Shown: positions 8,864 through 63,894 of the stretch, in pieces
How positions within the stretch are numbered: the first letter of the stretch is position 1
Layout of the letters: every line of letters starts with the position of its first letter
DNA from: Stenotrophomonas raiganjensis (SeqCode)
GTDB taxonomy: Bacteria > Pseudomonadota > Gammaproteobacteria > Xanthomonadales > Xanthomonadaceae
Direction of reading: 5' to 3'
NCBI RefSeq assembly: GCF_030658505.1
Contig: NZ_JAUTXR010000115.1
Coordinates: 20,205 to 84,204, forward strand
Length of the DNA: 64,000 nucleotides
Notes under the pieces: generated by a model
The model's input: only the letters and a program-made list of their open reading frames with translations
Told to the model about the DNA's origin: nothing
Database searches by the model: none
Translations under genes and position numbers: made by a program

Positions 8864-9646
8864 ATGGCCAAGCTCAAGCGCAAGGCGTACGACGAACTGC
8901 TGCTGCCACTGCAGCTGGAACTGACCGCGATGGCGCGCTGGGTGCAGCACAGCGGGCAGCGCCTGCTGGTGCTGTTCGAGGGCCGCGACACCGCCGGCAA
9001 GGGCGGTGCGATCCAGGCCATCAGCCAGCACCTCAACCCGCGCCAGTGCCGGGTGGTGGCGCTGCCCAAGCCCACCGACCGCGAAGCCACGCAGTGGTAC
9101 TTCCAGCGCTACGCGAGCCATCTTCCCGCTGCCGGCGAGATCGTGCTGATGGACCGCAGCTGGTACAACCGCGCCGGCGTGGAACGGGTGATGGGTTACT
9201 GCAGCGAGACCGAGTACCAACAGTTCCTGCGCCAGGCGCCGGTGTTTGAACAGCTGCTGGTGGACGACGGCATCCTGTTGTTCAAGTACTGGCTGTGCGT
9301 GGACCAGGAGCAGCAGGAGAAGCGTTTCTGCGAACGCCATGTCGATCCGCTGAAGGGCTGGAAGCTGTCGCCGGTGGACCTGAAATCGCGTAGCAAGTAC
9401 AGCGCATACACCGAAGCCCGCGAGGCGATGCTGCGCGCCACCCATCGCGAAGCGGCGCCGTGGACGCTGGTGGATTTCAACGACCAGCGCCTGGGCCGGC
9501 TGACCCTGGTGCGCAACCTGCTGGACCGGTTGCCCGACACACGGGTGGACGCGCCGTTGCCGGAGCTGCCGAAGCTGAAGGGCAAGCTGCATCGCGAGCA
9601 CTACGATGTGCTGAAGCCGATCGAGGACTTCCCGGTCGAGGATTAG
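8864..9646 (+). CDS. ppk2: Polyphosphate kinase 2 family protein
   Basis: Predicted to transfer phosphate between polyphosphate and nucleoside mono- or diphosphates. 260 aa from ATG 8864 (MAKLKRKAYDELLLPLQ); the frame is open upstream but that part overlaps the previous gene and lacks family similarity. A Walker-A-like loop FEGRDTAGKGG (38-48), the Walker-B/lid segment VLMDRSWYNRAGVERVMGY (from about residue 94) and KYWLCVDQEQQEKRF identify the one-domain PPK2 fold. Whether it prefers AMP, ADP or GDP cannot be read from the sequence. Last gene of the hemA cluster, converging on the 10182-10757 gene. Confidence 0.92.
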   Translation: MAKLKRKAYDELLLPLQLELTAMARWVQHSGQRLLVLFEGRDTAGKGGAIQAISQHLNPRQCRVVALPKPTDREATQWYFQRYASHLPAAGEIVLMDRSWYNRAGVERVMGYCSETEYQQFLRQAPVFEQLLVDDGILLFKYWLCVDQEQQEKRFCERHVDPLKGWKLSPVDLKSRSKYSAYTEAREAMLRATHREAAPWTLVDFNDQRLGRLTLVRNLLDRLPDTRVDAPLPELPKLKGKLHREHYDVLKPIEDFPVED

Positions 9647-9655
9647 GGTGGGTCG

Positions 9656-9674
9656 GCAGGGCCTGCGGCCCTGC
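9656..9674 (+). repeat. Outer 19-bp inverted repeat of locus A, left copy
   Basis: The 19-mer starting GCAGGGCCTGCGG is an exact reverse complement of 10151-10169. Each copy also folds on itself (GCAGGGC paired with GCCCTGC). A related 17-nt hairpin lies at 63937-63953 in locus C. Confidence 0.9.
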
Positions 9675-9690
9675 ACCTGCCGAAGCCAGA

Positions 9691-9714: not shown

Positions 9715-9732
9715 GCGGGCTTCCTGAGGGAT

Positions 9733-9834
9733 GGCGGGGCGGGTCCGGGTGCGGGGGGCGCTGCAAGTACGTCCATGTAAGCTCGGTCGCCGCATCCATG
9801 CGGCTCACGCCCCCGCACCCGGACTCGCCCCGCC
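9733..9834 (+). repeat. Long palindromic element A1 (forward core)
   Basis: 102 nt. The left arm (9733-9760) pairs with the right arm (9808-9834) almost throughout, with one G-U pair and one bulged G. The core between them contains GCAAGTACGTCCATGTAAGC and an inner hairpin GCCGCAT-CC-ATGCGGC (9789-9804). The core is identical to C1 at 63556-63602, but the arms are different sequences. Confidence 0.9.
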
Positions 9835-9858
9835 TTCGACAGATATCCGCGATCTGTC

Positions 9859-9948
9859 GTTGATCCACACCATGCGTGGATGCTCTTCGAATTCAACTCG
9901 AAATATTCGATTTGTCTGGAGAATCATCCACGCATGGCGTGGATCTAC
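9859..9948. repeat. GTAG-type REP/SMAG-like pair inside locus A
   Basis: Two facing palindromes, GATCCACACCATGCGTGGATG (left) and CATCCACGCATGGCGTGGATC (right), the latter ending in CTAC. They are separated by an AT-richer spacer holding TCGAATTCAACTCGAAATATTCGA. Confidence 0.75.
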
Positions 9949-9970
9949 CAGACATGAGGAATCTGTCAGA

Positions 9971-10072
9971 GGTGGGGCGGTGTCGGAGTGCGGGGTGTCA
10001 GCCGCATGGATGCGGCTGCCAAGCCTACAGGGACGTACTTGCGGCGTCCCCGCACTCCGACACCGCCCCGCC
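9971..10072 (-). repeat. Long palindromic element A2 (reverse core)
   Basis: 102 nt, the same length as A1 but in opposite orientation. Arms 9971-9995 and 10048-10072 pair over 25 positions with one wobble pair. Read on the minus strand, the core has GCAAGTACGTCCCTGTAGGC and the inner hairpin with CATCCATG. It is preceded by CTGTCAGA and followed by CCCACGGA. Confidence 0.9.
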
Positions 10073-10088
10073 ATCCCACGGATAGCCC

Positions 10089-10118: not shown

Positions 10119-10150
10119 GTTGCCGGCCAGCGGCCGGCACTACCGAGGGT

Positions 10151-10169
10151 GCAGGGCCGCAGGCCCTGC
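10151..10169 (-). repeat. Outer 19-bp inverted repeat of locus A, right copy
   Basis: Exact reverse complement of 9656-9674. It lies 12 bp from the stop codon of the 10182-10757 gene, so its hairpin could act as that gene's 3' transcript end. Confidence 0.85.
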
Positions 10170-10181
10170 CGCCCAACCCCA

Positions 10182-10757
10182 TTACTTGGCAGCCGCGATC
10201 TGCTTTTCGATGTCGGCAGCCGTCACCGGGCCGAGGAAGCTGTGCGCCAGCTTGCCCTGCGGATCGATGAGATGCGTCAACGGCAGGCCGCGTGGCGTGG
10301 CAAAGTCCGCCGGCGGATCGAACGGGTCCGCGATCACGATCGGATAGGTGACCGGATGCTTGGTCAGGAACGCCTGCATTTCCGGTGCCTCGATGTCCTC
10401 ATAAGCCAGGCCGACCACTTCGATGTTGCTGCGCATCGCATGCAGTGCCGACAGCTCCGGCATTTCCTTGCGGCACGGCGCGCACCAGGTCGCCCAGAAG
10501 TTCACCACCACCCACTTGCCGCGGTGCGCGGCCAGGTCGTAGTCGCTGCCATCCACCGCCTTCATCTTCAGCGCCGGGAACTCGGCGGTGGTGCGTTCAG
10601 CCGGGGTCTCCTCGACCGGTGCCGGCGTGCTCGGTGTCGGCGCCTGCGCCTGCGCCGGCGGCTGGCTGCTGGCCGGCGCAGGCGCCTGTGCCGGCTTGCA
10701 GGCCGACAGCGCCAGCAGCAGCGCCAGCGGAAGCAGCAATGGGGTCCTGCGGGTCAT
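10182..10757 (-). CDS. TlpA-like thioredoxin-fold lipoprotein
   Basis: 191 aa. A lipoprotein signal ends in the lipobox LALSAC (Cys20), followed by a Pro/Ala/Gln-rich linker (about 21-50) and a TlpA/ResA-type thioredoxin domain with the redox motif [10 protein letters not shown] (Cys92, Cys95). The cis-Pro position is GLPLTHL. Predicted periplasmic, membrane-anchored thiol-disulfide oxidoreductase; partner not known. The ATG (10755-10757) overlaps the YihY stop as ATGA. Confidence 0.88.
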
Positions 10758-38767: not shown

Positions 38768-38842
38768 TTCCGGCCAACGGCTGAGCCCCTCGTGGCGGGG
38801 GGCTGGGTCGCGAACTGCGTGGAGCAAAAGCCGCGCTGGGTC

Positions 38843-38953
38843 GGGCGGGTTGGGTTCGCGGGGGACGCCGTGAACCCATCCATGAAGTGACCCCCGGGGC
38901 TTGGCCGCGGCATCCATGCCGCGGACACCCCCGCGAACCCAACCCACCCGCCC
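38843..38953 (+). repeat. Long palindromic element B1 (forward core)
   Basis: Arms 38843-38864 and 38928-38953 pair, with a perfect run over GGGTTGGGTTCGCGGGGG. The core has GCCGTGAACCCATCCATG, GGGGCTTGGCC and the inner hairpin CCGCGGCAT-CC-ATGCCGCGG. Outside the right arm is CTCTGACAG, the reverse complement of the CTGTC-type boundary of other copies. Confidence 0.85.
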
Positions 38954-39150
38954 TCTGACAGTTTTCTGTGGCCGCCCGCCACGGAAGAAAGAAAGAAGAG
39001 CAACAGCGGGTCGCGCGCTTCGCTTGCTCGCAGCCGAGCATGGCTATGCCGGTCGTCCTGACCGGCACCCTCCGGGCCGTCGCGCAAGCGACGTTGGCAG
39101 CGGCTCCTGCCGCTGCCTTCGGCTCTACAGAAAGCACTGCAGAACCAAAC

Positions 39151-39182
39151 AAAAAGGACGCGGCGAACGCCGCGTCCTTTTT
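39151..39182. terminator. Bidirectional intrinsic terminator
   Basis: AAAAAGGACGCGGCG-AA-CGCCGCGTCCTTTTT is a perfect 15-bp stem with A5/T5 ends, plus GTTTTTC on one side and CAAAC on the other. It can stop transcripts from tal and from msrA. Confidence 0.88.
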
Positions 39183-39243
39183 GTTTTTCTTCAGTTCGTC
39201 AGTAACCAATGCTCTCGCCCACCGTCACCGGGAAACTGTCGGA

Positions 39244-39347
39244 GGTGGGACGGGTGCAGATGGCGGGACCGTCCACGGCATGGATGCCGTGGCCGAGCCC
39301 CCAAGGACGGGTTTACGGCGTGTCCCGCCATCTGCACCCGTCCCGCC
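39244..39347 (-). repeat. Long palindromic element B2 (reverse core)
   Basis: Arms 39244-39269 and 39322-39347 pair over 26 nt with one wobble. Read on the minus strand the core is GCCGTAAACCCGTCCTTGGG, then GGCTCGGCC and the inner hairpin CACGGCAT-CC-ATGCCGTG. It is preceded by AACTGTCGGA. Confidence 0.88.
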
Positions 39348-39370
39348 AAACTCACAGCAAACCAGAGCCG

Positions 39371-39436
39371 CTTGGCTTTGGCTTTGGCTTTGGCTTTGGC
39401 TTTGGCTTTGGCTTTGGCTTTGGCCTTGGCCTTGGC
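39371..39436 (+). repeat. Hexamer microsatellite, 11 units of YTTGGC
   Basis: One CTTGGC, eight uninterrupted TTTGGC, then two CTTGGC. It sits outside element B2, in the place where loci A and C carry GCTGTT arrays, and begins 44 bp downstream of the msrA stop. Confidence 0.93.
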
Positions 39437-39479
39437 TTTCAGCCGTTGACGTTGCCCGCCGCAGGCGGACCACCGCGCG

Positions 39480-63420: not shown

Positions 63421-63530
63421 GGCGGGGGTTCCGGGTGGGCTTGGCGCCGAGCATGCCATGGTTCGGGTGAAAGACCGGCCATCGGGCGCCGCCCCCTCCG
63501 CGGTGGTTGGCGGGTTCTCTCTGGTTGGCT

Positions 63531-63626
63531 GGGAGGGTGGGTTGGCTGGGGGGCGCTGCAAGTACGTCCATGTAAGCTCGGTCGCCGCATCCATGCGGCT
63601 CACGCCCCCAGCCAACCCACCCTCCC
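63531..63626 (+). repeat. Long palindromic element C1 (forward core)
   Basis: 96 nt. Arms 63531-63555 and 63603-63626 pair over 24 positions with one bulged G. The 47-nt core (63556-63602) is identical to that of A1; the arms share no sequence beyond G-richness with A1. Confidence 0.9.
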
Positions 63627-63709
63627 GGCCACGGACAATTTCCTGCGCACCGCGGGAAGATCAAAAGAAAAAGAAAAATCAAAAGCGAAATCCGATTCTC
63701 CAGGCATTC

Positions 63710-63734: not shown

Positions 63735-63776
63735 AGAGCGGGATGCCGTTCCAACAGACCGCGGAAAACTGTCGAA

Positions 63777-63878
63777 GGCGGGGTGGGTCCGGTTGAGGGG
63801 GCGTGAGCCGCATGGATGCGGCGATCGAGCTTACATGGACGTACTTGCAGCGTCCCCCTCAACCGGGCCCACCCCGCC
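63777..63878 (-). repeat. Long palindromic element C2 (reverse core)
   Basis: 102 nt. Arms 63777-63803 and 63851-63878 pair over 27 positions with one wobble and one bulge. On the minus strand the core has GCAAGTACGTCCATGTAAGC and the CATCCATG hairpin. Preceded by AACTGTCGA, followed by CCCACGGA. Confidence 0.9.
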
Positions 63879-63894
63879 AACCCACGGAATGCGC

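Follow-up and report, generated by a model that had tools for sequence, protein, structure and literature searches.

The original YPAL paper (De Gregorio 2006) reportedly describes dispersed intergenic copies of a Yersinia palindrome that lie close to stop codons. Passages of PMC2229807 report empty and filled YPAL sites, with target duplications of 3–26 bp, and in the part of PMC2759123 that prints it (Delihas 2007) the repeat RU-2/YPAL carries the same core as the palindromes considered here. Among RNA families, TwoAYGGAY (RF01731) belongs to the Rfam clan CL00106, which also holds RsmW, and is proposed in a passage of PMC4333381 to bind CsrA. The binding motif of CsrA/RsmA is given in a passage of PMC3937308 as ACARGGAUG, with GGA the most conserved part, and Xanthomonas genomes are said in a passage of PMC7286519 to code no CsrB or CsrC homologs. 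Excerpts of PMC3733652 name SMAGs as REPs and give the motif GGGGWSAS for the terminal repeat of TIRYT elements.

The family is thus known already in Yersinia, and the RNA motif in Rfam. A literature search that reached few subscription journals found no paper linking YPAL with CsrA, and short stretches of the core, sought in literature text, gave nothing relevant by title among the matches listed. The present analysis joins the dispersed palindromes of Yersinia, TwoAYGGAY and the palindromes that reach a hundred copies in Stenotrophomonas and related genera, three things that were not found connected in the literature passages available; nor do these passages link the Stenotrophomonas palindromes with either YPAL or CsrA.

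Six palindromes and their Yersinia relatives

The stretch analysed, here called the window, is 64,000 nucleotides of Stenotrophomonas raiganjensis DNA. An earlier note on it had described six palindromes, A1, A2, B1, B2, C1 and C2. These are real: each is about 105 nt long, and all six are matched by a covariance model, R1. Palindrome A1 (approximately 9731..9835, GGA strand on minus) has an outer stem, P1, enclosing two hairpins, P3 and P2. Its P2 hexaloop is AUGGAC (9771..9776, minus strand, GGA at 9772-9774) and its P3 hexaloop AUGGAU (9794..9799, minus strand, GGA at 9795-9797), each with a C-G closing pair, and the two GGA sites are spaced 23 nt apart. Palindrome A2 (approximately 9970..10074) has its GGA strand on plus, with the P3 hexaloop AUGGAU at 10006..10011 and the P2 hexaloop AGGGAC at 10029..10034, both on the plus strand and again closed by C-G. 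The covariance model and folding place B1, which has a short insertion in its P2 loop, at 38838..38953 (minus), B2 at 39244..39348 (plus), C1 at 63526..63630 (minus) and C2 at 63776..63880 (plus).

The arms of A1 and A2 are about 25 bp long and 93% and 96% complementary respectively. Folded as RNA, the core strand has z scores of -7.1 (A1) and -8.4 (A2) and the opposite strand, which shows GGA, of -7.4 and -10.0, and in each of the four cases none of 200 shuffles is as stable. The core pattern, with up to two mismatches, occurs at 4 places in the window, and at none in 100 shuffles. The six copies have six different arm sequences, each pairing with itself, as had been noted; the arms are, however, not unlimited in variety. 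Single-linkage clustering at 80% identity puts 130 copies of the same genome into 25 clusters, so part of the copy-specific appearance is subfamily membership.

The spacer between A1 and A2 (9852..9955, no strand assigned) holds an inverted pair with CTAC at the end of one side, which we take to be a SMAG-type REP. A GC-rich hairpin (9639..9677, no strand assigned) lies at the stop codon of the left gene and has an inverted counterpart at 10148-10186, 87% complementary to it; at L200, a site that looks empty of the element, a hairpin like the left one survives, along with a portion of its right counterpart. Between B1 and B2 (39150-39190) there is a hairpin resembling a bidirectional intrinsic terminator (AAAAAGGACGCGG..CCGCGTCCTTTTT), and beside B2 (39370-39440) a tandem array of GGCTTT units. 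Many of the copies inspected have short units of this kind 3' of the GGA strand. At its gathering cut-off, Rfam finds one tRNA over the window and nothing else. Weak matches to Rfam microRNAs were disregarded as generic long-hairpin matches.

The earlier note knew of no named family with this design. Here it was mistaken, as the core is that of YPAL/RU-2 of Yersinia, and the palindromes also resemble TwoAYGGAY and Ysr224 of Rfam; the match to an already described repeat, which the note had itself listed as a possible objection, thus exists at the level of the family. Model R1, built from copies of the Stenotrophomonas genome alone, matches four copies in Yersinia similis at E 3e-12 to 1e-13, and these are 97.6–99.4% identical to RU-2 in the excerpt that prints it. 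The same printed sequence is 79% identical to an own-genome copy over 71 nt (L051) and 75% identical to another over 53 nt (L001). Since R1 detects the Yersinia copies and the core of RU-2 matches, the palindromes form, judged by sequence, the branch in Stenotrophomonas of a MITE-like family of repeats to which YPAL/RU-2 also belongs. At least 118 stretches from named genomes match a 26-base pattern from the P2 region exactly. By title, the 80 matches listed are Gammaproteobacteria, including Yersinia similis, Pantoea, Rheinheimera, Marinobacter, Methylomonas and Cellvibrio; one viral contig also carries the exact pattern, within a YPAL-like copy. Searches of plasmids (with two single-copy queries) and of phages (with one) gave no match at 1e-5.

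A covarying three-way junction on one strand

In the genome of origin (the own genome), a search with a 340-base query gives 103 matches, the core pattern with at most one mismatch occurs at 57 places, and R1 gives 136 matches at E 0.001 or better (150 candidates scored). The set analysed consists of the 130 distinct matches above 50 bits, at 99 loci, out of 226 matches, the remainder being antisense matches and weak or partial copies. Many copies sit at contig ends of this assembly, which implies that the repeat breaks assembly and that the copy count is approximate. A second set, of 69 distinct copies, comes from other genomes: 65 of the copies belong to other genera and 4 to other species of the genus. 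One alignment, called A1 like the palindrome, excludes loci L002, L008, L020 and L052.

On the reverse of the AAGTACGTCC strand, the element folds as a three-way junction, with P1 (25 bp) followed by P3, with loop C[AUGGAU]G, and then by P2, with loop C[ANGGAY]G. The earlier note had seen in this design the signature of selection on a fold, and had suggested a covariance model and a test of covariation; a model was built and the test was run on the own genome and on others, and covariation is strong in both, well above that in shuffles. In 48 own-genome copies there are 260 cells changed on both sides compared with 72.5 in shuffles, a value reached by none of 500 shuffles. In these copies 91.6% of the cells are paired, 31 of the 39 pairs show changes on both sides, and the signal is lost when the partner is slid by 1 to 3 columns. 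The 69 copies from other genomes give 806 double-changed cells compared with 233.6 in shuffles, with 97.6% of cells paired, in an alignment that was fitted to R1 and hence leans towards the model. From that alignment RNAalifold predicts P1, P3 and the inner hairpin of P2, the outer P2 pairs being missing from the prediction; the third outer P2 pair is formed in 41 of 64 other-genome copies.

It could be argued that there is no selection at all, and that a few palindromes were recently duplicated and merely look structured. The small number of arm clusters in the own genome does imply many recent relatives, but the copies from other genomes fall into 45 clusters at 80% identity among 69 copies, remain almost completely paired, and like the 48 aligned own copies include compensatory changes across unrelated arms, as the earlier note had anticipated. 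Together with the failure of every shuffle to reach the observed covariation, this makes the argument hardly credible.

The earlier note also held that mismatches in the arms are mostly G-U compatible, which is true of the strand that is the reverse of the one reading AAGTACGTCC, and of that strand alone. On this GGA strand, P1 of the 130 own copies (25 pairs each) has 108 G·U, 17 A·C and 98 other mismatches. The 69 copies from other genomes (24 pairs each) have 81, 6 and 19 respectively, the 65 from other genera alone giving 76 G·U and 6 A·C, and 67 of 74 gammaproteobacterial copies have 96, 11 and 128. In an alignment of 49 own copies made with no preference for either mismatch, the numbers are 38 G·U, 6 A·C and 28 other; these copies were chosen by the P2 core pattern, so that their P2 letters are biased, and 9 of 61 were dropped for having no P3 match and 3 more for short arms. 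Of the palindromes in the window, A1 has a single transition-type arm mismatch that runs contrary to the trend, and that of A2 is in line with it. The favoured fold sits on one strand, namely the one that shows GGA. Inference from nearest neighbours over the 25 P1 pairs gives 44 changes of C>T against 11 of G>A, and 23 of A>G against 0 of T>C, these being cells and not independent events, with 90 mismatches undecided. Both transition routes are skewed, and cytosine deamination alone is therefore not enough, since it does not predict the skew of A>G over T>C.

GGA hexaloops and CsrA/RsmA

The loops are among the most conserved parts of the element. GGA is present in 128 of 129 P2 loops of the own genome (1 further loop is odd), with position 2 being T in 66, G in 37, A in 19 and C in 7, and in all of 124 P3 loops (6 odd). 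In other genomes it is present in 68 of 69 P2 loops and in 68 of 68 P3 loops (1 odd), where position 2 is free as well (T 47, G 16, A 4, C 1). In the own genome the inner P2 stem alternates between CCC/GGG, TAC/GTA and TCC/GGA while the loop is unchanged. Given that both hexaloops C[ANGGAY]G are kept in sequence, selection appears to act on structure and loop letters together. GGA conserved in hairpin loops whose stems vary is what would be looked for in a decoy of CsrA/RsmA, and by their letters the hexaloops match the published motif ACARGGAUG. CsrA tolerates any letter at loop position 2, and structural work on RsmE is said to find position 2 free and the closing pair within the site. A GGA spacing of 23 nt could be bridged by one CsrA dimer. 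The own genome has one copy of csrA. Within 30 nt on the 5' side of P1, GGA occurs in 91 of 124 copies, compared with TCC in 48 of 124.

We propose, with a confidence only a little above even, that the palindrome is a MITE-like element encoding an RNA that binds CsrA/RsmA at two neighbouring sites of a three-way junction. The GGA strand (the reverse of AAGTACGTCC) would be made as RNA, and would fold into the long stem P1, free in sequence, and two hairpins with C[ANGGAY]G hexaloops. The two GGA loops, 23 nt apart in A1, could then be bridged by one CsrA dimer, and the most likely effect would be that CsrA/RsmA is bound, either by a decoy RNA or within untranslated regions. The data establish a single family, the covarying fold, its preferred strand, the conserved loops, spread by copying and a position beside stop codons in the own genome; we infer transcription of the GGA strand, binding by CsrA and any cellular effect.

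The likeness to TwoAYGGAY is relevant here. Two hairpins with AYGGAY-type loops are indeed found inside an outer stem, although position 2 can be any letter and not only Y. In the own genome the Rfam model has 5 matches at E<=1, all of them on R1 copies and on the GGA strand, with a best score of 36.7 bits; none of the 5 reaches the gathering threshold of 43 bits, and A1 and A2 have no match even at E 10. The threshold is passed by one of 13 genomes, G039 (47.2). The at least 118 gammaproteobacterial stretches yielded 116 unique complete copies for a test of the P3 loop (and 85 with enough flank for the test of gene orientation described below). By a strict rule, C[ANGGAN]G closing a stem of 4 bp or more, 74 of the 116 have the P3 hexaloop, and the 42 that fail comprise many near variants and a few unrelated sequences.

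It is worth adding some observations on the loops and on neighbouring genes. Genome G004 has no R1 match among 64 scored candidates, yet it has three matches to TwoAYGGAY (L420, L421, L422); this repeat has different stems, with both types of C[ANGGAY]G loop, closed by C-G, in 2 of the 3 copies. At L016, L029, L031, L036, L038, L050 and L055, and at the orthologous sites L189 and L207, the P3 hexaloop is interrupted after AUGG by an insert of about 80 nt, which forms two extra hairpins on the GGA strand, with loops such as AGGAC and AGGACA. A different insert is found in the P2 hexaloop at L180, L187 and L207, and is about 90 nt long where its length is seen (L207). The P3 and P2 hexaloops thus seem to be targeted by something. 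A single copy of the element lies 54 nt from the 3' end of a response-regulator gene (L154:2697-3344), whose product presumably resembles UvrY/GacA.

Should CsrA/RsmA bind these loops, sites of a global regulator have been carried through many Gammaproteobacteria by a mobile repeat, and the element would become a candidate for the Csr decoys that are missing from xanthomonads.

Placement, copying and comparison with known systems

R1 matches are present in 32 of 61 genomes including the own genome (64 candidates scored per genome), and in 72 of 247 genomes, representing 16 of the 54 genera of the family (16 candidates per genome). In another family, two genomes reach 37 and 43 matches; an Rfam group I intron match (L275:2563-2816) lies roughly 1 kb from one of the copies in a genome of another family. 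One orthologous site was compared between species. The gene upstream of it, which from its protein we take to be ppk2-like, is present in 86 of 91 genomes, and the site downstream has at least one match in 28 of the 30 loci compared, own included. The exceptions are L200, which looks empty, and L188, which carries other DNA. The arm subfamily at a given position of this site differs between species.

The placement reported for YPAL, dispersed, intergenic and near stop codons, is found in the own genome. There, the gene 3' of the copy ends towards it in 77 of 122 cases, with its stop codon no more than 300 nt away (median 80 nt); another 22 copies look onto the start of a gene, and for 23 no gene is called over that distance, the open reading frames being those of a simple finder and not an annotation. 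The transcript of the adjacent gene would thus mostly carry the TCC strand (77/122). Genes were called on both flanks of 17 own pairs of copies, and in 9 of these the two genes are convergent. These numbers suit a double-sided hairpin at gene ends, acting on either transcribed strand as a barrier to transcription or a stabiliser of mRNA, as proposed for YPAL and REPs, and so does the choice of the TCC strand in the Rfam model of Ysr224, an sRNA family. The strand preference points the other way: a hairpin serving both strands should have equal numbers of G·U and A·C on both, which was not found, and the wobble polarity favours the strand that is mostly not transcribed by the adjacent gene. Such a hairpin also has no need of fixed loop letters, whereas the loops are strongly conserved. 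We therefore consider a gene-end hairpin improbable. In the 85 gammaproteobacterial copies there is no consistent gene orientation: 9 lie inside open reading frames, and the other 76 are distributed as (+,+) 20, (-,-) 24, (+,-) 18 and (-,+) 14.

The arrangement of the copies and the age of their mismatches bear on how the element spreads. Of the 91 groups in the own genome, 31 are pairs, and every one of these has its GGA strands pointing outward, as do all 12 multi-copy groups at other-genome loci. P1 mismatches that are common to related copies include no A·C among 99 (own and other genomes together), compared with 18 of 115 for private ones. The shared mismatches are 54 G·U, 0 A·C and 13 other in the own genome and 30, 0 and 2 elsewhere; the private ones are 35, 14 and 54 in the own genome and 6, 4 and 2 elsewhere (cells with too few neighbours were set aside, numbering 19, 3 and 31 in the own genome and 45, 2 and 15 in the others, in the same order). 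The lack of A·C among shared mismatches means that selection is visible in the copied lineages. The copied versions can fold on the GGA strand, and single copies decay far more freely, although private G·U still exceeds private A·C in the own genome (35 to 14). This contrast agrees either with selection at the copying step or with purging over time. For repeats in general, comparing shared with private mismatches offers a way to test whether selection acts in place or at copying.

Because private mismatches are much less constrained, single copies may not be individually selected. This weakens the case for every copy being a working regulator, and a sizeable share of the probability has to go to the main competing reading of the same fold, unlikely as we judge it to be: that the folded GGA strand is a substrate or intermediate of mobility, either single-stranded DNA for a putative nuclease or RNA that is copied back, with the loops as recognition letters of the enzyme and the likeness to CsrA sites due to chance. 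Copying of foldable versions only would account for the mismatch pattern, and G·T is the mildest mismatch in DNA; the outward pairs and the lack of orientation to genes in the wider set also fit. On the other side, the difference between shared and private mismatches could be one of age, with young harmful changes awaiting purge, and loop position 2 is free where CsrA sites are free. Nor has an enzyme been found. At 30 of 35 places with a Y1 transposase in 13 genomes, some of which carry few or no R1 copies, there is no R1 match above 22 bits within flanks of up to 1.5 kb.

Several candidate partners were considered and rejected. The three Y1 places of the own genome each have an inverted pair with GTAG/CTAC ends, like SMAG REPs. 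An autonomous parent between distant pairs was sought in the complete genome G011, where no transposase was recognised by eye in five wide pairs; they contain REP-array-like tandem repeats (two pairs), an eda-like frame, a short stretch and a 117-codon frame (one each). Membership of TIRYT was also rejected: the repeats GGGGTCAG/CTGACCCC stand beside the Y1 genes of L209-L212, and no R1 match above 22 bits is found there. These repeats fit GGGGWSAS of TIRYT, and similar palindromes occur in the spacer of some R1 pairs.

A role in mobility explains the strand of Ysr224, the gene orientation and the private mismatches better than CsrA binding does; with no enzyme in hand, it leaves the CsrA likeness as chance. 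The two are not mutually exclusive. Our preferred reading remains the CsrA/RsmA-binding RNA. For it we count the covariation, the strand skew, the loop conservation, the likeness to TwoAYGGAY, the repeat of G004, the single csrA and what the passage of PMC7286519 says of Xanthomonas; against it, the sub-threshold score of every TwoAYGGAY match in the own genome, the strict P3 loop failed by 42/116 and the weakness of the outer P2 pairs. The strongest facts against it are that Ysr224 is modelled on the opposite strand, that gene orientation is not fixed and that private mismatches are loosely constrained. A slim chance may be given to a combination of the two, in which the element is copied by way of its own folded strand, like a SINE, has thereby spread more than a hundred CsrA sites that feed back on the Csr network, and through the joint work of its copies replaces the missing CsrB/RsmZ of xanthomonads.

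Of the known systems, GTAG and CGTC REPs, SMAG, BIMEs and TIRYT are, in the parts of PMC3733652 seen, likewise dispersed extragenic palindromes of the same genomes, often in inverted pairs. The present element is not an ordinary REP, as the earlier note had rightly said: it is much longer and forms a three-way junction, with no GTAG or CGTC tag conserved at the alignment ends and no Y1 partner in the places examined. The decoys CsrB/CsrC and RsmX/Y/Z are single genes with a regulated promoter. They likewise offer several GGA hairpin loops to CsrA/RsmA, whereas the palindrome has two fixed sites per copy and is a dispersed repeat. TwoAYGGAY (RF01731) shares with the element its strand and the order of its parts, namely two hairpins with ANGGAY-type loops, an AG linker and an outer stem. 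The Rfam model differs in having a longer second hairpin and an outer stem of different sequence. Ysr224 (RF02770, Yersinia sRNA 224) is the same element as the YPAL copies, modelled on the strand opposite GGA; it scores 126–134 bits at three Yersinia similis loci, on the TCC strand, and an own-genome copy reaches 35.1 of the 70 bits required, also on that other strand. The closest relative is YPAL/RU-2, which has the same core, two GGA-loop hairpins in a long stem and a dispersed intergenic distribution. The Stenotrophomonas arms are GC-rich and of other sequence, with RU-2 and A1/A2 being 75–77% identical over 43–53 nt, and unlike YPAL/RU-2 the Stenotrophomonas branch has 130 copies in the own genome, often as outward-pointing pairs with REP-like repeats between them.
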